Shown here: positions 7,195-18,466 of the stretch, one piece after another
Position numbering within the stretch: the first letter of the stretch is position 1
Layout of the letters: every line of letters begins with the position of its first letter
Assembly: GCF_004362805.1 (NCBI RefSeq)
Contig: NZ_SNYF01000005.1
Span: 62,001-126,000, forward strand
DNA from: Algoriphagus boseongensis
GTDB taxonomy: Bacteria > Bacteroidota > Bacteroidia > Cytophagales > Cyclobacteriaceae
DNA: 64,000 nucleotides
Reading direction: 5' to 3'
The notes under the pieces: generated by a model
The model's database searches: none
Told to the model about the DNA's origin: nothing
What the model saw: only the letters and a program-made list of their open reading frames with translations
Position numbers and translations under genes: made by a program

Positions 7195-10100
7195 ATGCTA
7201 GATAAGATCATCCATTGGAGTATTTCCAATAAACTGATAATCGGAATTTTTATTGCTGTTTGGATTGGCTTCGGCATTTATTCACTGGGAAATATCCCGA
7301 TCGGTGCAGTTCCTGATGTCACCAACAACCAAGTTCAGGTCATCACTACCTCTCGAAACCTTGCCACAGAAGATGTGGAAAAATACTTGACCTATCCGGT
7401 CGAATTGGAAATGGCTAATCTCCCCGGGGTAAAGGAGATCAGATCAATCTCAAAGTTTGGACTTTCTGTGGTTACCATCGTTTTTGAGGAAGACTTGGGA
7501 ACCTACCTTCCTCGTCAGCTTATCGCTGAAAGGTTAAAAATTGCGGAGGAAAAAATTCCAGCTGGTTTTGGAAAACCTTTCATGGGGCCGATTTCCACAG
7601 GACTTGGGGAGATTTATCAATATGTCATTGATGTCAAGCCGGGATATGAGGATAAATACAGCATAACGGATCTTCGGACAATCCAGGATTGGGTAGTGAG
7701 AAGACAGCTTGCCGGGATTTCTGGTGTGGTGGAGATCAATACTTGGGGAGGATTTTTAAAACAATATGAAGTCTCTGTCAATCCCGAAAGACTCAAGGGA
7801 ATGGGCATCTCCCTTCAGCAAATTTATTTGGCCCTTCAAACCAACAATTCCATTGCCGGAGGTAGCTATATCGAGAAAACCAACGAGAGCTTTTTCATCC
7901 GAGGTGAAGGTCAGATCAATAACCTGGAAGACATTGGCAATATCGTCTTGGAGGTCAGAGAAGGCACTCCGGTTTATGTCCGGGATGTTGCAGAAATAAA
8001 ATATGGTGCTGCCAATCGCTTTGGTGCGATCACAGCCAATGGAGAAGGAGAGAAGGTCCTCGGTCAGATCATGATGCTCAAAGGAGCTGATGGGAAAAGA
8101 ACCATTGATGCCGTTAAAGCGCGAATTGCGGAAATGGAAAACACCCTTCCTGAAGGCATTGTGATCAATGGGTTTTTGGATAGATCTGAGCTAATCGGCA
8201 AAACCACATTCACCATCGCTGAAAACTTGATTTTGGGATGTTTGATTGTGGTATTTGTGGTGGTTTTGCTTTTGGGAAATTTCCGCTCAGGACTGGTCGT
8301 CGCTTCGGTAATTCCATTGAGCTTATTTTTCGCACTTTCAATGATGTACGTTTTTGGGGTGGATGCCAACTTGATGAGCTTAGGTGCCATTGACTTCGGG
8401 ATCATCATTGATGGCGCAGTGATCATCGTAGAATACATTGCTTTTCAATTCACCAAATCAGGAAGTTTATTAACCGGGCTTTCTAAAAAAGAGCTTCAGA
8501 CTGAAAAGGATAAGATTTCATTCAACGGATCTTCCAAGATGATGCATTCGGCCATTTTTGGACAGATTATCATCATCATCGTATTTATCCCGATTTTATC
8601 TCTTTCTGGAGTTGAAGGGAAAATGTTCCGCCCAATGGCTGAAGTATTCAGTTTTGCCTTGATCGGGGCCATGATTTTGGGAATGACTTACGTGCCGGTA
8701 GTTTCTTCTATTTTTCTAAAATCTGAGGCACCTGGACCAAAGAACGTTTCCGTTCGAATCATCAATTTTTTAAATGGATTGTACGAGCCAACCTTAAAGT
8801 TTGCCTTGAATCATTCCAAAGCAATCCTTGCTGCAGCAGGGGCGTTGTTGATTGCCACTGTACTCATTTTTAGCAGAATGGGTTCTGAATTTGTTCCCAC
8901 TTTGGACGAAGGAGATTTTGTAATTCAACCGGTTTTGAAAACTGGAACTCCACTAACAAATACCGTAGAAACTATCACCCAAATCGAGAAAATCCTCAAG
9001 CAGTTTCCTGAAGTGAAGCAAGTTGTGACCAGAATTGGTGCGGCAGAAATCCCCACCGATCCTATGTCCATGGAAGAAAGCGATGTGATTGTGACCTTAA
9101 ATCCTCCTTCGGAATGGACTACCGTAGAAACCAAAGACGAATTGGCAGACAAGTTCAAAGAGGCTTTGGAAGTGATTCCTGGATTGGACTATGAATTCAC
9201 CCAGCCAATCGAAATGCGATTCAATGAATTGATCACCGGGGTAAGAGCTGACTTGGCTATCAAGGTATTCGGGGAGGATTTGGATGTTTTGTTAAAAACT
9301 GCCGAAGATATAGAGTCTGCAATTCAAGGGGTAGAAGGAGCTGCTGATATCATTTTGGAAAAAGTGGATGGCTTGCCTCAAATGAAAATTGAATTTGACC
9401 GGAAGAAAATAGCCCAGTTTGGATTGAATGTTTCTGACCTGAATGATGTGGTGGAAATGGGATTTGCAGGAATGACAGCAGGAAGTGTTTTTGAAGGGGA
9501 AAAGCAATTTGATCTGGTGGTTAGATTTTCAGAGCCTTACAGAAAAGATATTACTCACTTGGAAAATGCAACCATTCAATTACCGAATGGAGGCAGTGTT
9601 CCGCTTTCACAATTAGCTAAAATCACCTACACCAAAGGTCCTGCAAAAATCTCCAGAGATAACACCCAAAGAAGAATTGTAATCGGAGTTAATGTGAGAA
9701 ATCGAGATCTCCAATCAGTGGTGGACGATGTGCAAGCCATTGTGAAAAATCAGGTGACCATTCCTGAGGGGTACCGAGTGGCCTATGGTGGTCAATTTGA
9801 AAACTTACAGCAAGCCAGAAGTAGGCTGATGATCGCTGTTCCTATTGCCCTGATCTTGATTTTCATTCTCCTCTATTTCGCTTTCTCTTCTTCTAGAGAA
9901 GCTTTGATGATTTATTCCGCGATTCCGCTTTCTGCTATCGGTGGGGTTGCCCTCTTGTGGGTAAGGGATATGCCTTTCAGTATTTCGGCGGGTGTTGGCT
10001 TTATCGCTCTATTTGGTATTGCTGTACTAAATGGAATCGTGATGATCGAACACTTTAAATCCATGAAACATAAGTTTACTGACATTCGGGACTTGGTGAT

Positions 10101-11520
10101 TACCGGTGCGAAAGAAAGGATGCGACCGGTGTTGTTGACAGCTTCTGCGGCTGCAATGGGCTTTTTGCCTATGGCGATCTCCCAATCTGCCGGAGCTGAG
10201 GTGCAGAGACCTTTGGCAACTGTGGTAGTTGGAGGTTTGATTTCAGCCACGGTTTTGACCTTGGTAGTTCTACCGGTTTTATATGTGATGTTTAATGAAA
10301 AGTCTTTCTCCTTCAAGCCTGGGAAACACCTTTCTATCATTCTTTTCCTTGGTCTATTCTTGTCTTTTTCCAGTAGCTATGCGCAGGAAATCTCCCAGCC
10401 TTTGACCTTAGAGCAGGCTCTTGATCGAGCTTTGCAGCAAAATCTATCTATTCAGGCAGCTAGAAAGAGTTTGGATGTTGCTGATGCGCAAAGCAAAGCA
10501 GGTTGGACCATAGATAAAACAGAGGTCTACTACGGTTTTGACAAAAATGATATTGCAGAGAACGGGGACTATAACCGAAAAATAGGAGTCCGTCAAAGAT
10601 TCGATTTCCCAAGTCTGTATTCCGCCCAAAAGAACACGCTCCAAGCTGCAGCCGAAGCCCAAAAAGCTCAGGTAGATTTGGCTGAAATGAGATTGAAAAA
10701 GGAGGTTTCCAAAGCCTTCATTACCGCAGTTTACTGGCAAAATCTCGAAAAAGACTATGGCTATTTGGATAGTTTGTATGGGGAATTTGCTCGGGCTTCG
10801 AGAAGAAAGTTTGAAACCGGAGAAAGCAACCTTCTGGAAAAACTCACCGGAGAAAGTAAACAAAGGGAAATCGGACTAAAACGAGCCGAGGCTTCTCAAA
10901 ATGTGGCTATTGCCTTGAATCAACTCAGACAATTGCTCAATTGGGAAGGTGATCTAAAGCTGGTGGAGGAAGAACTTTCCCCTTTAGAATCGGAAGAAAC
11001 GCTTCATCCCGGTTTGGCGGTTTATCAGGCTCATTTGAGTCTGGCGGAAAATCGGGTAAAAGTGGAAAGACGAACCTTGCTCCCGGATTTGAATTTGGAT
11101 TTCTTCAGAGGAACCAACCCGTCTATTAATTCACAAATATATCCAGGCTTTCAGGCTGGTATCGGGATCCCGCTTTTCTTTGGCTCCCAAAGTGCAAAAA
11201 TCAAGGCTGGAAAATTCTATCAAGAGCAACTTACTCTGGAATCTGAGGCCTTTTCCCAGCAATTGGAAACCCGGAAAGCTACTATTGAAAGAGCTTTAGC
11301 CCAGAATAAAACAGTCATCGATTATTATGAAAAGGAAGGCAGGGTTCTTTCCCAACAGTTGCTGGATCAAGCCGGAAGATCCTATAAGGAAGGGGAAATT
11401 GACTTTCTCCAATACGTTCAGTTGGTCGAAAACTCAAAAAATCTGGCCTTACAATACCTCCAAAGCAAATTGGATTATCAATTAAATCTACTCGAAATCA
11501 CATACCTAACTTTGCCATGA
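7195..11520 (+). CDS. CzcA/CusA-type heavy-metal RND permease fused to a TolC-type outer membrane channel
   Basis: The protein is 1441 residues. About 1-1035 is a full HME-RND permease with 12 helices and two large periplasmic loops. Helix 4 carries DFGIIIDG (D400, D406), the arrangement seen in divalent-metal (Czc/Cnr-type) pumps rather than the DA-type of CusA. Residues about 1036-1441 are a complete TolC/CzcC-like outer membrane efflux protein. The join contains a hydrophobic stretch ending SSSYAQ that looks like a signal peptide with an Ala-x-Ala-like cleavage site. The fusion may be cut into two proteins, or an in-frame ATG at 10288 may start the second part. The gene overlaps the adaptor gene by 4 nt. 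Zn/Co/Cd/Ni export is the likeliest role. Confidence 0.9.
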   Translation: MLDKIIHWSISNKLIIGIFIAVWIGFGIYSLGNIPIGAVPDVTNNQVQVITTSRNLATEDVEKYLTYPVELEMANLPGVKEIRSISKFGLSVVTIVFEEDLGTYLPRQLIAERLKIAEEKIPAGFGKPFMGPISTGLGEIYQYVIDVKPGYEDKYSITDLRTIQDWVVRRQLAGISGVVEINTWGGFLKQYEVSVNPERLKGMGISLQQIYLALQTNNSIAGGSYIEKTNESFFIRGEGQINNLEDIGNIVLEVREGTPVYVRDVAEIKYGAANRFGAITANGEGEKVLGQIMMLKGADGKRTIDAVKARIAEMENTLPEGIVINGFLDRSELIGKTTFTIAENLILGCLIVVFVVVLLLGNFRSGLVVASVIPLSLFFALSMMYVFGVDANLMSLGAIDFGIIIDGAVIIVEYIAFQFTKSGSLLTGLSKKELQTEKDKISFNGSSKMMHSAIFGQIIIIIVFIPILSLSGVEGKMFRPMAEVFSFALIGAMILGMTYVPVVSSIFLKSEAPGPKNVSVRIINFLNGLYEPTLKFALNHSKAILAAAGALLIATVLIFSRMGSEFVPTLDEGDFVIQPVLKTGTPLTNTVETITQIEKILKQFPEVKQVVTRIGAAEIPTDPMSMEESDVIVTLNPPSEWTTVETKDELADKFKEALEVIPGLDYEFTQPIEMRFNELITGVRADLAIKVFGEDLDVLLKTAEDIESAIQGVEGAADIILEKVDGLPQMKIEFDRKKIAQFGLNVSDLNDVVEMGFAGMTAGSVFEGEKQFDLVVRFSEPYRKDITHLENATIQLPNGGSVPLSQLAKITYTKGPAKISRDNTQRRIVIGVNVRNRDLQSVVDDVQAIVKNQVTIPEGYRVAYGGQFENLQQARSRLMIAVPIALILIFILLYFAFSSSREALMIYSAIPLSAIGGVALLWVRDMPFSISAGVGFIALFGIAVLNGIVMIEHFKSMKHKFTDIRDLVITGAKERMRPVLLTASAAAMGFLPMAISQSAGAEVQRPLATVVVGGLISATVLTLVVLPVLYVMFNEKSFSFKPGKHLSIILFLGLFLSFSSSYAQEISQPLTLEQALDRALQQNLSIQAARKSLDVADAQSKAGWTIDKTEVYYGFDKNDIAENGDYNRKIGVRQRFDFPSLYSAQKNTLQAAAEAQKAQVDLAEMRLKKEVSKAFITAVYWQNLEKDYGYLDSLYGEFARASRRKFETGESNLLEKLTGESKQREIGLKRAEASQNVAIALNQLRQLLNWEGDLKLVEEELSPLESEETLHPGLAVYQAHLSLAENRVKVERRTLLPDLNLDFFRGTNPSINSQIYPGFQAGIGIPLFFGSQSAKIKAGKFYQEQLTLESEAFSQQLETRKATIERALAQNKTVIDYYEKEGRVLSQQLLDQAGRSYKEGEIDFLQYVQLVENSKNLALQYLQSKLDYQLNLLEITYLTLP

Positions 11521-13871: not shown

Positions 13872-13898
13872 ATAGGGGTATCTTCAGTTTCAGTTGTC
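13872..13898 (+). promoter_or_regulatory. Candidate ECF-sigma promoter (autoregulated sigma gene)
   Basis: ATAGGGGTA (13872-13880), 13-nt spacer, TTGTC (13894-13898). The same two blocks with the same 13-nt spacing stand before the gene at 17267. A GTC-ending minus-10 is typical of ECF sigma promoters. The shared architecture suggests that the sigma factor recognises both sites. It lies 52 nt before the chosen start codon. Confidence 0.6.
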
Positions 13899-13950
13899 TT
13901 TTTTAAAAGAGAACCAAACCCGTAACTTGCAGGAAAGCATCCCACTTTTC

Positions 13951-14532
13951 ATGCAAGGTTCAGATCATTTGGTTTTTTCTGCCATTCGTACCGGAGATAT
14001 TTCTTCCTTTGAGATGCTATTCAAGACGCATTATTCCCCCTTATGCAGGTTTGCCCAGTCCTATCTTCAGGATTCTGAAGATGCCGAGGAAATCGTTCAG
14101 TCTACTTTTATCGGGTTTTGGGAGAAAAGGGAGAGTATCGCAATAGATACTTCATTGAAGGCCTATTTGTATCGAAGCGTACGGAATGCCTGCCTGAATG
14201 AATTGAAGCGTCAAAAAGTAAGAAAGCTACATGCAGATGAAATAGTGAAAGACGGGGAGCCTCAATCGGAAGCCTCCGACCAAATTGCCATGAAGCAGGA
14301 GTTGGAAGTGAAAATCCAGGAAGCCATCAGCAAACTTCCGGAGCAATGTCAGTTGATTTTTAGGATGAGTCGATTTGAGGAATTGAAATACCAGGAAATC
14401 GCGGACCAATTGGGGCTTTCCATCAAGACTGTAGAAAATCAAATGGGAAAAGCTTTGCGAATAATGAGGGAGCAGTTGAAGGAGTATTTACCATTAATTA
14501 TCGTCCTGATGAGGGGATTTTTGGATCTATGA
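13951..14532 (+). CDS. ECF RNA polymerase sigma-70 factor (Bacteroidota FecI-like)
   Basis: The product is 193 residues. Region 2 (about 25-95) includes HYSPLCRFAQSYLQDSEDAEEIVQ, and region 4 (about 125-175) has LPEQCQLIFRMSRFEELKYQEIA and the helix-turn-helix LGLSIKTVENQMGKA. I chose the ATG at 13951, preceded by an AGGAAAG ribosome site. A TTG at 13894 overlaps the proposed minus-10 and is rejected. The gene overlaps the FecR gene by 4 nt, the usual layout of a surface-signalling sigma/anti-sigma pair. Confidence 0.9.
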   Translation: MQGSDHLVFSAIRTGDISSFEMLFKTHYSPLCRFAQSYLQDSEDAEEIVQSTFIGFWEKRESIAIDTSLKAYLYRSVRNACLNELKRQKVRKLHADEIVKDGEPQSEASDQIAMKQELEVKIQEAISKLPEQCQLIFRMSRFEELKYQEIADQLGLSIKTVENQMGKALRIMREQLKEYLPLIIVLMRGFLDL

Positions 14533-15497
14533 GCGAGCAAGAGTACATCGAGGACCTGGTGGTGAAATTCCTTCTGGGTGAAGCAAATCCTGAGGAAATC
14601 AAGGAGGTGGAAACTTGGTGTGCCCAAAGTTCAGCAAATCAAAAGTACCTCGAGGATACCAAGTTGATCATTGAAAAATCTCAGCTCCCTTCCTCTGCCG
14701 AATTCGATCCGGAAAAAGCCTGGTCTAAGGTTGGTCCCAAACTTCGGGATACCAGAAAAGAAGTCCGCTCCATTATCAGTTTGTGGAAAATCGCTGCCAG
14801 TTTGATCCTCGTGGCAGTTGTGGCCTACTTGTTTTATTGGTATATGGCGCCGGGAGAGGAATTTGTCTATTTGAGCGAGAATGAAGTTTTGACCCAGACT
14901 TTACCTGACCAAACAGAAATCTCCCTCAATCGGGAATCCGAAATAAAGGTAGACTATAACCCAAGAAAGAAGACTGGAACAATTCAGTTGAAGGGAGAGG
15001 CTACTATCAGTATTGGAAAAGAAAAAGACATTCAATGGATAGTGGAGGCTGAAAACTTACTGATCAAGGATATTGGGACTGTTTTTAATGTCAAAGCCTA
15101 TCCCGAGGATCAAATGATTGAAGTCTCAGTTTTGGAAGGTGCCGTTCAGTTTTATGAAAAAGGAGAAGAAGGAATTCTGCTTAAGGCTGGAGAAATGGGA
15201 GTTTATGATAAGATTTCCAAGCAATACAGCAAAACTCAAGCTGATACCAATGTAGTTTCCTTCAAGACCCGATCTTTCCAGTTTACAGAAGAAAACCTAC
15301 AAGAGGTGGTGGATTTGATCAGCGAGGTGTATGACCAGGAAATTATCCTTTCCGGCCCTGTAGGTTCCTGTAAAGTGACCGTTGGATTTGAAAATGAGGA
15401 TATGGATACCATTTTGGAAATTTTATCCGAAACCATGGGCTTAGAAATTCGAAAAGTTGGGAATCAAATAATTCTCCAAGGAGAAGGCTGTTTTTAA
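14529..15497 (+). CDS. FecR-family anti-sigma factor with DUF4974 tail
   Basis: The product is 322 residues. The cytoplasmic N-terminal part (1-80) should hold the sigma factor, one helix (about 85-106, KIAASLILVAVVAYLFYWYM) crosses the inner membrane, and a periplasmic FecR domain follows (about 115-215). The C-terminal domain (about 250-322) has the STN-like DUF4974 pattern. In Fec-type systems the periplasmic part contacts the STN domain of an outer membrane transducer. Here the next gene, only 2 nt downstream, encodes an STN domain on a protein that is not a TonB receptor. Confidence 0.9.
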   Translation: MSEQEYIEDLVVKFLLGEANPEEIKEVETWCAQSSANQKYLEDTKLIIEKSQLPSSAEFDPEKAWSKVGPKLRDTRKEVRSIISLWKIAASLILVAVVAYLFYWYMAPGEEFVYLSENEVLTQTLPDQTEISLNRESEIKVDYNPRKKTGTIQLKGEATISIGKEKDIQWIVEAENLLIKDIGTVFNVKAYPEDQMIEVSVLEGAVQFYEKGEEGILLKAGEMGVYDKISKQYSKTQADTNVVSFKTRSFQFTEENLQEVVDLISEVYDQEIILSGPVGSCKVTVGFENEDMDTILEILSETMGLEIRKVGNQIILQGEGCF

Positions 15498-15499
15498 CC

Positions 15500-17176
15500 A
15501 TGAGGCGAATTCTACCCTTTGTAATTTTTCTTCTGATGGTGATAGGGAATGTCTTTTCCCAAAGTGTTCCTCTTTTGGAAAAAAGGGTAAGCATCCAGGC
15601 TCAAAATGAACGAATCGATCTTTTTTTAAAAAGACTTTCCGGAGAGGTTGGCTGCGTTTTTTCCTACAGTTCATCAGCCATTGATGTCAGCAAGAATTTT
15701 TCCGGAAGCTTTACTAATCAAAGTACCCGGGAGGTTTTGGAAGGGGTTTTTCAGGGGTCAGTTTTGTACAAAGAGAGGGGAGTGTATCTTATTTTGACAC
15801 CGGCTCCAGTTTCTGAAAAGGAAGTAACCATCAGCGGCTACGTGGTTAATGAGTCCACAGGGGAGCGTGTCCGAAATGCAACGATTTATAATCCGATTAC
15901 CTTACGATCTTCCACTACAGATGAGTTTGGATTTTTTGAATTTCAGGTGAAAAACCCTGCTGAAGAGGATTTTCAGCTGATTGTGAAAAAAGAAAACTAT
16001 GCAGATACCTTGGTTTTTGCGAAAAGTAAACGCTCCTATTTTCAAAATATCTCCTTAAAAATTGATCCTGAAAAGCTTCTGGCTTGGACAAAAGATTCCA
16101 CAGGCCAAACCAAGGATTTTTGGCTTTGGAATAAGAATTCTGCTGGAGCAAAGAATATCGCTAACATGGGCGATACCATTTACCGTGATTTTCAACTTTC
16201 CCTTTTACCCTTTTTAGGAACCAATAGAAAGCTGAGTGGAAGCGTGGTCAATGATTGGTCAGTCAATGTCCTTGGGGGGTATTCAGGAGGAACCAAGAAA
16301 GCGGAAATCGGGGGCTTATTTAATATCGATCGGGGAGAGGTTGGGAAATTCCAAGCGGCAGGACTTTTTAACTACAATGGGGGATTAGTTCGAGGTTTTC
16401 AGGCAGCAGGTCTTGCAAACGTCAATCTGGATTCTTCCAAGGCCTTTCATGCTGCTGGGCTTGCAAACTTGGTTGCTGGAAATTTGGAAGGGGCTCAAGT
16501 GGCTGGGGTGGTGAATATTTCCACAGGAAGTACCACTGGAGCCCAAGTGGCTGGTGTGGCAAATTATACTCATCAGGATGTGACAGGAACACAGGTCTCA
16601 GCTGTTCTTAATGTTGGTAGGAAAGTCACCGGAAGTCAAATCGCTTTGCTTAATTATGCGGATAGCATTTCGGATGGGGTTCCTGTCGGATTGATCAGTT
16701 TTGTGAGAACTGGCTATCACGTGGTAGAACTCAGCTCCAATGAAGTTTTGCCAATGTCTTTGGCGCTTAGGACGGGTACCCGACCCTTTTATAATTTATT
16801 ATTTGCAGGAATCAGGCCTGAATCTACAGGTCCTACCACTTGGTCTTTTGGTTATGGGATTGGAACATCTCCCCGTCTTGGGAAAAAACTCTATTTGAAT
16901 ATAGACTTCAGCTCTGAGCAACTGAATCAGGGAACAGTATCAGCACTGAATTTAATCAATCGGGCTAATCTTGCTTTGGAATATCAAGTAGCAAGAAAGG
17001 TGGCTGTTTTTGCAGGGCCGACTATAAATTATCGGGTTTACGAGGCTGATTATCTTTTCCACCCGGATTTATTTACGGGTTATTTCCCCAAATTTTTGAA
17101 AGAGAGAGTCCAAACCGATAGTCAAATCGGAGAGCAAGTCTGGTGGGGATTCAAGGCTGGAATCCGCTTTTTCTAA
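15500..17176 (+). CDS. STN + carboxypeptidase-regulatory-like domain + surface-repeat outer membrane protein
   Basis: The product is 558 residues. A signal peptide ends NVFSQ. An STN domain (about 27-100) is followed by a CarboxypepD_reg-like beta domain (about 105-195, ISGYVVNESTGERVRNATIY). The rest contains about six degenerate repeats of the form G-x-Q-x-AG-L/V-x-N-(x)n-G (about 278-385) and a beta-rich C-terminus ending WGFKAGIRFF, with the terminal Phe of outer membrane barrels. The repeats recall the LA_2272-type surface-repeat family; that comparison is from memory. No TonB plug or receptor barrel is present. Next to sigma/FecR genes it is the likely signal transducer, in a domain combination I do not recognise from characterised systems. 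Confidence 0.75.
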   Translation: MRRILPFVIFLLMVIGNVFSQSVPLLEKRVSIQAQNERIDLFLKRLSGEVGCVFSYSSSAIDVSKNFSGSFTNQSTREVLEGVFQGSVLYKERGVYLILTPAPVSEKEVTISGYVVNESTGERVRNATIYNPITLRSSTTDEFGFFEFQVKNPAEEDFQLIVKKENYADTLVFAKSKRSYFQNISLKIDPEKLLAWTKDSTGQTKDFWLWNKNSAGAKNIANMGDTIYRDFQLSLLPFLGTNRKLSGSVVNDWSVNVLGGYSGGTKKAEIGGLFNIDRGEVGKFQAAGLFNYNGGLVRGFQAAGLANVNLDSSKAFHAAGLANLVAGNLEGAQVAGVVNISTGSTTGAQVAGVANYTHQDVTGTQVSAVLNVGRKVTGSQIALLNYADSISDGVPVGLISFVRTGYHVVELSSNEVLPMSLALRTGTRPFYNLLFAGIRPESTGPTTWSFGYGIGTSPRLGKKLYLNIDFSSEQLNQGTVSALNLINRANLALEYQVARKVAVFAGPTINYRVYEADYLFHPDLFTGYFPKFLKERVQTDSQIGEQVWWGFKAGIRFF

Positions 17177-17212
17177 GGGCTAAAAAAAAATCAAAAATTT
17201 TTCTCCTTCCGA

Positions 17213-17239
17213 ATAGGGGTAAGGCGAAGCTGAATTGTC
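17213..17239 (+). promoter_or_regulatory. Second copy of the candidate ECF-sigma promoter
   Basis: ATAGGGGTA (17213-17221), 13-nt spacer, TTGTC (17235-17239), 27 nt before the ATG at 17267. It is the same bipartite motif as at 13872-13898. The intervening spacers differ, which argues that the motif is conserved by function rather than by recent duplication. Confidence 0.6.
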
Positions 17240-17266
17240 CTACTACTGAAAACTAAACCAAGTAGT

Positions 17267-18466
17267 ATGAAAACGATTCATAAATTTTTGATGGTGGCTG
17301 CATTTGGATTTGCACATCCTTTCCATGCAGCTGCCTTTCAATCCTCCGACAAAAGCGAGGAAAAAGTAGAAAACCAGAGATCCAGCTCCATTCAGTTCAA
17401 TCCATTCAGCAAGGATTTCTCAGATACGGTAACGGTTCCTTTTCAGTTCTCTTTTGTTCCTTTTGTCGGAACGAATGGGACAAATTCCGGAAATGTGATC
17501 AATGAGGTATCCATCAATTTCTTTGGAGGCTATTCTGCGGGTACCACATCTTTTGAGATGGCCAGTTTATTCAATATCAACCGAGGAGAGATGTCAGGAG
17601 TCCAATTGGCGGGGCTTTTTAACCAAGTAGGAGGAAAAGTCGATGGGGTGCAGCTGGCAGGACTTTTCAATTCCAATCTTGATTCGGTCAGGGGAGTTCA
17701 GCTAGCCGGATTGACCAATTTTACAACCGGTTCAGTGGAGGGGGTTCAGATTTCCGGGCTGGCAAATTTTTCTCCCAAAGCTGTAAAAGGAGTTCAATTG
17801 GCAGGATTGCTTAATTTTTCTGCAGCAGATTTAGAAGGTTCCCAAATTGCCGGGCTGGTTAATTTCACCGCTCATGAGGTGAAAGGCTCTCAGGTTGGAT
17901 TGCTGAATTTCGCTGGGAAAGTGGATGGCTTCCAACTCGGCTTGTTTAACTATGCGGATAGCATGAGTGGAGTGCCAGTCGGCTTGATGAGTTTTGTGCG
18001 TGGAGGATACCATACGGTTGAGTTTGGAGCCACGGATATTCTGCCCTTTAATTTGGCTTTGAGAAGTGGGAAGCGGGAATTTTACACCTTTTTTCAGGCT
18101 GGAATCCGTCCTGATTTGGACAGAGAAGTAACCTGGTCTTTTGGATATGGCGTGGGTACCTCTCCCAGACTTGGCCAAAAACTCTTTTTGAATATTGAGG
18201 TAAGTTCAGAGCAATTGAATAAGGGAAATGTCCAAGCGGTAAACCTGATCAATAGATTTTATGTAGGAGGGGAATGGCAGGCGACCAAGCGGTTTGCGAT
18301 TTATGCGGGCCCGACCATCAATTTTAGAGTTTATGAAACTGACTTTGAAGGGCATCCCGACCTTTTTACCTATTCCTTTCCGACTATACGAAATGAAAAA
18401 TTCTATGCTGAAAACATAGGCAGCCAAATGTGGTATGGCTTCAAGGCTGGATTCCGGTTCTTTTAA
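17267..18466 (+). CDS. Surface-repeat outer membrane protein, paralogue lacking the STN domain
   Basis: The product is 399 residues with a signal region (about 1-24). It closely parallels the second half of the preceding protein: the FVPFVGTN segment, seven or so repeats such as GVQLAGLFN and GVQISGLANF (about 100-228), the shared NYADS-SGVPVG-L-SFVR block, and a barrel-like end WYGFKAGFRFF. It lacks the STN and regulatory-like domains. Its own promoter carries the motif shared with the sigma gene, so it is probably the regulon target or a co-receptor. The function is unknown. Confidence 0.75.
   Translation: MKTIHKFLMVAAFGFAHPFHAAAFQSSDKSEEKVENQRSSSIQFNPFSKDFSDTVTVPFQFSFVPFVGTNGTNSGNVINEVSINFFGGYSAGTTSFEMASLFNINRGEMSGVQLAGLFNQVGGKVDGVQLAGLFNSNLDSVRGVQLAGLTNFTTGSVEGVQISGLANFSPKAVKGVQLAGLLNFSAADLEGSQIAGLVNFTAHEVKGSQVGLLNFAGKVDGFQLGLFNYADSMSGVPVGLMSFVRGGYHTVEFGATDILPFNLALRSGKREFYTFFQAGIRPDLDREVTWSFGYGVGTSPRLGQKLFLNIEVSSEQLNKGNVQAVNLINRFYVGGEWQATKRFAIYAGPTINFRVYETDFEGHPDLFTYSFPTIRNEKFYAENIGSQMWYGFKAGFRFF

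Follow-up and report, generated by a model that had tools for sequence, protein, structure and literature searches.

A FecIRA-like sigma/anti-sigma locus in Algoriphagus boseongensis whose predicted outer-membrane partner is not a TonB-dependent receptor

Cell-surface signalling (CSS) systems of the FecI-FecR-FecA type, which depend on a TonB-dependent transducer, combine an extracytoplasmic function (ECF) sigma factor, a FecR anti-sigma factor with a PupR-like periplasmic domain, an outer-membrane partner that carries an STN domain and is encoded by the adjacent gene, and a promoter at the sigma operon. The partner is normally a receptor that imports iron or sugar. For the transducers that have been studied, one receptor serves both signalling and TonB-driven transport, and the two are difficult to disentangle (PMC9249621). 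In FoxA/FoxR the signalling domain guards the anti-sigma factor from proteolysis until the signal comes (PMC11637429). Here we describe a locus in a 64,000-nucleotide stretch of the Algoriphagus boseongensis genome (contig NZ_SNYF01000005.1; hereafter the window) that has these features in common with FecI-FecR-FecA, but whose STN protein lacks the plug and the 22-strand barrel, and is predicted to have an NTE domain, a beta-solenoid and an 8-stranded barrel instead. The genes linked to its promoter also differ from those of FecI-FecR-FecA, including Toastrack lipoproteins and an STN-less paralog of the STN protein. Because a TonB receptor, a defining feature, is missing, the locus is not classed as a TonB-dependent transducer system, though it would work much as FecIRA does.

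Precedents are VreA, an STN protein without a barrel, and the Dma anti-sigma factors, which connect an outer-membrane barrel to an ECF sigma factor. PUMA3 (VreA-VreI-VreR) of Pseudomonas aeruginosa likewise has an STN partner without a TonB-receptor barrel, but VreA is small, mostly soluble and periplasmic with a TolA/TonB-like C-terminal domain (PMC2729926), whereas the protein considered here is a predicted outer-membrane barrel protein, kept through Bacteroidota, the C-terminal part of which models as an 8-stranded outer-membrane barrel. The Dma/Das dual membrane-spanning anti-sigma systems of Bacteroides also tie a Bacteroidota outer-membrane beta-barrel to an ECF sigma factor; Dma, however, partners ECF21 and unites anti-sigma domain, transmembrane helix, disordered tether and barrel in a single chain (PMC13088901), while here anti-sigma domain and barrel are on separate genes; FecR provides one half of the link, and a distinct STN protein, which has a folded solenoid, the other. 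The N-terminal STN-CarbopepD_reg pair is shared with SusC-like TonB receptors that have STN and NTE, and the NTE domain matches that of SusCdex (9hfj), but plug and TonB barrel are replaced by solenoid and 8-stranded barrel. Repeat proteins of the LA_2272 / VC2662 family share the GxQxAGxxN repeats and the C-terminal barrel; they are named surface repeats, and their pairing with STN or FecR is not known in the literature found. No description of this system, or of the TAGGGGT promoter reported below, was found in the literature searched, which covered LA_2272 also and did not reach subscription papers.

The locus comprises four genes on the + strand, encoding the ECF sigma factor, FecR, the STN protein and its STN-less paralog (Table 1). 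We put at roughly 70% the probability that they belong to a FecIRA-type sigma/anti-sigma relay with an outer-membrane arm other than a TonB-dependent receptor, a joint explanation that includes release of FecR by STN and an envelope regulon. The first-pass annotation had placed STN and a regulatory-like domain, on a repeat and barrel protein without a TonB plug, 2 nt after FecR, with a second copy without STN adjoining; both genes lie where it had put them, and the absence of a plug is borne out across the family, since Pfam profiles detect Plug in 0 of 58 STN-protein family members. The same members contain CarbopepD_reg_2 (58/58) and STN (52/58), and 53 of them match the LA_2272 repeat (NF047436) at E 0.1, to which the window protein itself scores 16.1 bits (curated cut-off 25); a weak BamP match appears in three (E 0.044). 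Searched against PDB sequences, the whole STN protein gave no match and the STN alignment only weak PilQ matches.

An AlphaFold2 model of the STN protein, built on the 58 sequences (mean pLDDT 87.3, pTM 0.68), resolves the domain order. By Foldseek the N-terminal region matches the PupA signalling domain (2a02, prob 1.0, TMt 0.66), and by VIA-align residues 107-195 match the SusCdex NTE domain (9hfj, Z 12.3, rmsd 1.9 over 80). Repeats and barrel are separate domains in the model. The first has an exact 16-residue period, with Q at 285, 301, 317, 333, 349 and 365 (H at one of these), and aligns with right-handed beta-helices, namely HxuA (4i84, rmsd 3.6 over 169) and tapirin (6n2c, rmsd 2.8 over 161); a left-handed beta-helix (GlmU/LpxD, Z 14) is disfavoured by an rmsd of about 10. 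Residues 402-558 align with the 8-stranded barrels of OprF (4rlc, rmsd 3.0 over 122) and NspA (1p4t, rmsd 3.2 over 132) and with the designed barrel 6x9z (rmsd 2.2 over 111). A hidden TonB receptor, the outcome that structure prediction might have revealed, is rejected: Pfam finds no plug, the strand list of the model gives an 8-stranded, OmpA-like barrel at 403-558, and 558 residues leave no room for 22 strands.

The profile of FecR matches the solved structures of BDI_1681 (4m0n, E 6e-45) and PupR (6ovk, E 5e-15), its model resembles the PupR CCSSD (6ovk, TMt 0.75) and BDI_1681 (4m0h, E 7e-21), and its periplasmic part is of PupR type, a FecR domain with an STN-like subdomain, like the domain of PupR that binds STN. 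The genome (4.18 Mb, rated 100% complete) contains 35 Plug matches and exactly one FecR_C, which adjoins the STN gene. STN is matched twice, by this gene and, weakly (E 0.9), by a TonB receptor (L032 1324-3117, G000:C5) that has a weakly STN-like N-terminus and no FecR beside it. Since the sole FecR_C adjoins the STN protein and the other STN-like receptor has no FecR nearby, the STN protein is, by exclusion, the most plausible partner of FecR.

This pairing is retained far beyond Algoriphagus. Scanning named genomes turned up 217 relatives, and the 78 loci returned are the basis of the following counts; the query for the collection scan was an alignment designated A2, a nine-sequence alignment (A1) being too diverse. 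Sigma factor, FecR and STN protein occur in this order on one strand in 73 of 76 loci having the STN protein, spanning Cytophagales, Chitinophagales, Sphingobacteriales and Fluviicola, and such conservation across the phylum rejects chance or a local artefact. One of the three exceptions is cut at a contig end; the other two are Chitinophaga genes (L108, L110) with no sigma factor or FecR within about 6 kb. A record labelled Glaciecola amylolytica, a gammaproteobacterial name (L087, CP034120.1), carries the operon and a DUF2807 gene like the Fluviicola loci, and is probably mislabelled. Two loci from within the genus (L015, L039), probably one species in both collections, have a single in-frame stop near residue 170 of the STN-solenoid gene.

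The survey of FecR-adjacent genes that the first-pass annotation had called for approaches the pairing from the side of the anti-sigma factor. Among 50 Cytophagales FecR loci, the next gene encodes a TonB receptor in 29, an STN-solenoid protein in 14, another STN protein without a detected plug in three, and none of these in four; these fractions are rough, because the loci were best-scoring or hand-picked matches. As a control, Plug was detected in all 29 of the TonB receptors, against 0 of 13 STN-solenoid proteins scanned from the 14 loci. In the three further cases FecR is followed by an STN-like region with a small outer-membrane barrel (OMP_b-brl_2; L118), by an STN, CarbopepD_reg and DUF5686 protein (L120), or by STN, CarbopepD_reg and an unknown region (L122), with no plug detected in any, and TonB-free FecR partners may therefore form a wider class.

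The locus also has a promoter motif of its own. Alignment of upstream regions revealed the conserved sequence ATAGGGGTA...TTGTCaTA, and the derived pattern TAGGGGT-N15-TGTC occurs at 116 sites on the operon strand and none on the reverse in 988 kb of loci; when the spacing was scanned from 6 to 25, all other values gave 0 or 1 site. It precedes the sigma gene in 42 of 73 loci under strict matching and 57 of 73 when relaxed, and FecR in none (0/73). Elsewhere in relatives it lies upstream of the STN-less paralog (29/35, about 51 nt before the ATG), of a neighbouring STN-less TonB receptor (14/41), of DUF2807 (Toastrack) lipoproteins (11/28) and of small outer-membrane barrels. The window contains two exact sites, at the sigma factor and the paralog, where shuffling predicts 0.05. 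In the FecR survey, eight of the 14 STN-solenoid loci have the motif, against only two degenerate relaxed matches in the other 36. Searching the whole genome with the looser TAGGGGT-N16-GTC returned five sites: those of the sigma factor and paralog, two within coding sequence, and one, the only other non-coding site, 70 nt ahead of a DUF4097 (Toastrack) lipoprotein gene 350 kb away. The motif also lies upstream of orthologs of this lipoprotein gene (41-55% identity) in seven other species, at unlinked loci. Toastrack domains (DUF4097, DUF2807) have been linked to envelope stress responses (PMC11237479). Judged from position, spacing and strand, TAGGGGT-N15-TGTC appears to be a dedicated promoter, and it and its gene set are new in this analysis. 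Together with the missing plug, the 8-stranded barrel model and the phylum-wide pairing, it supports the proposal that FecR is paired here with an STN protein that is no TonB receptor.

Table 1. Features of the locus, numbered from the first nucleotide of the window.
Feature	Position	Strand	Basis and remarks
ECF-type promoter of sigma operon, TAGGGGT-N15-TGTC	13873..13898	+	75 nt before ATG 13948; matching site 5' of sigma in relatives
ECF sigma factor (TIGR02985), 194 aa	13948..14532	+	186.6 bits (cut-off 126.4); start from promoter position and ortholog lengths
FecR-type anti-sigma factor	14529..15497	+	PF04773 and PF16344 over cut-off; cytoplasmic helices 3-73, transmembrane segment 86-106, FecR domain 110-237, STN-like FecR_C 249-317
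STN-NTE-solenoid-barrel protein, 558 aa	15500..17176	+	begins exactly 2 nt past FecR; proposed outer-membrane partner of FecR
Signal peptide, about residues 1-22	15500..15565	+	sequence; helix 4-18 in model
STN signalling domain, residues 27-101	15578..15802	+	domain profiles, model, Foldseek
CarbopepD_reg / SusC NTE domain, residues 107-192	15818..16075	+	structural match 9hfj, family profile matches
Beta-solenoid, 16-residue GxQxAGxxN repeats, residues 227-402	16178..16705	+	repeat period, model; probably periplasmic
8-stranded OmpA/OprF-type outer-membrane barrel (predicted), residues 403-558, C-terminal Phe	16706..17173	+	model, structural matches
Second ECF promoter copy	17214..17239	+	53 nt before ATG of STN-less paralog
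STN-less solenoid-barrel paralog, LA_2272 repeats, 399 aa	17267..18466	+	NF047436 38.9 bits (cut-off 25)

The sigma gene had been listed with a TTG start at 13894, but this codon falls in the -10 element of the promoter and is probably not the start; ATG 13948 is favoured for this reason, and ortholog lengths and promoter spacing concur. The region as originally delimited, from 13872, begins one base ahead of the promoter. Sigma and FecR genes overlap by 4 nt, and the paralog is 56% identical to the STN protein over residues 329-558 of the latter (E 1.7e-78). Elsewhere in the window (7195-11520), a CusA/CzcA-like resistance-nodulation-division pump and a TolC-like outer-membrane factor are apparently fused in one open reading frame of 1441 residues, followed by an HlyD-type adaptor (PF16576).

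By analogy with FoxA/FoxR, the relay might operate as follows. The 8-stranded barrel would anchor the STN protein in the outer membrane, from where the periplasmic solenoid and NTE would reach inwards and present STN to FecR, an inner-membrane protein, at its STN-like C-terminal domain. At rest, STN docked on FecR would shield it from proteolysis and the sigma factor would stay bound; were the outer-membrane module disturbed, engaged or mis-assembled, STN would let go, FecR would be cleaved and the sigma factor freed. Acting through TAGGGGT-N15-TGTC, the free sigma factor would then switch on the operon that encodes it, the STN-less paralog and a small set of envelope genes: in A. boseongensis the DUF4097 lipoprotein, in relatives STN-less TonB receptors and DUF2807 lipoproteins. 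TonB would be dispensable to such a relay, and the status of the outer membrane would be its signal; we regard the system as a TonB-receptor-free variant of FecIRA that probably monitors the outer membrane.

Several observations weigh against this interpretation. Taken alone, the window protein scores only 20.2 bits for STN, under the Pfam cut-off of 28.4 (its CarbopepD_reg_2 score, 26.3 bits, is also under cut-off), and the barrel, the solenoid and the topology derived from them come from a single AlphaFold2 model. In genomes of the genus that have the operon, raw counts of the promoter motif do not exceed those of a reversed-pattern control, so that its number carries no weight. The motif is tied to this sigma factor by association, which applies equally to autoregulation through the conserved promoter 5' of the sigma gene, and it could serve a different ECF factor. 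DUF2807 proteins have, moreover, been described as adhesins. Finally, TonB transport may still have a part in the pathway, either downstream or as a co-sensor, because the STN-less TonB receptor in relatives carries a matching promoter (14/41).

That receptor is the basis of an alternative in which the transducer is split: the STN-less TonB-dependent receptor would be the true sensor and the STN-solenoid-barrel protein an adaptor reading its state, so that TonB would still be needed. The receptor (about 781 residues, with CarbopepD_reg and Plug but without STN) is encoded downstream on the same strand at many loci, where it shares the promoter to the extent just given, and PUMA3/VreA has been proposed to act with a separate outer-membrane receptor (PMC2729926). 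However, the operon in A. boseongensis has no such receptor next to it, the best match elsewhere in the genome being only 29% identical, many relatives keep the operon with no receptor detected within about 6 kb, and a gene driven by the promoter is as likely to be an output as a sensor. We therefore regard the split transducer as unlikely.

The position of the repeats bears on a second alternative. The first-pass annotation, like the family name, had them as surface repeats, but the model suggests that they are probably periplasmic. Both ends of an 8-stranded barrel point toward the periplasm and its lumen cannot let a chain through; the solenoid, N-terminal to this narrow barrel, shares a side with STN, which must be periplasmic to meet FecR. 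Were the repeats exposed at the surface, the protein could act like an adhesin, as a receptor that recognises an external ligand or a surface. NCBIfam does name the LA_2272 family a surface repeat, and the layout is comparable to that of autotransporters, in which right-handed beta-helix passengers precede C-terminal barrels. Given the closed lumen and the requirement for STN to reach FecR, we find surface exposure decidedly improbable. A remaining alternative, that the STN-solenoid-barrel protein is a sigma-regulated envelope output with STN a relic or a binder of something other than FecR, could draw on the promoter copy of the STN-less paralog and on the weak conservation of STN in the window protein, but is very doubtful in that STN and NTE are retained in nearly all family members, almost every locus has the gene immediately 3' of FecR, and loss of STN is confined to barrel-only paralogs.

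The preferred interpretation, a FecIRA-type relay with an outer-membrane arm free of a TonB receptor, has several consequences. The STN-FecR module apparently occurs here without any transport barrel, and so the STN handshake can be studied by itself. In Cytophagales, STN-solenoid proteins represent a second common class of FecR partner (14 of the 50 surveyed loci, besides the three other non-TonB partners), such that FecR beside STN does not automatically signify nutrient import. An envelope response is suggested by the promoter-linked genes, which comprise Toastrack lipoproteins, small outer-membrane barrels and STN-less TonB receptors. As a tentative extension, which we consider possible rather than probable, the system may conduct surveillance throughout Bacteroidota, the periplasmic solenoid of an OmpA-like barrel reading outer-membrane state or assembly and signalling by the STN-FecR handshake, with neither TonB nor a transported ligand, to a Toastrack-type envelope stress regulon. 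If true, this would give the phylum, whose sensors of this kind are little known, a functional equivalent of RpoE or Rcs. The locus would apparently represent a widespread and so far undescribed route by which information passes from the outer membrane to the genes of these bacteria.

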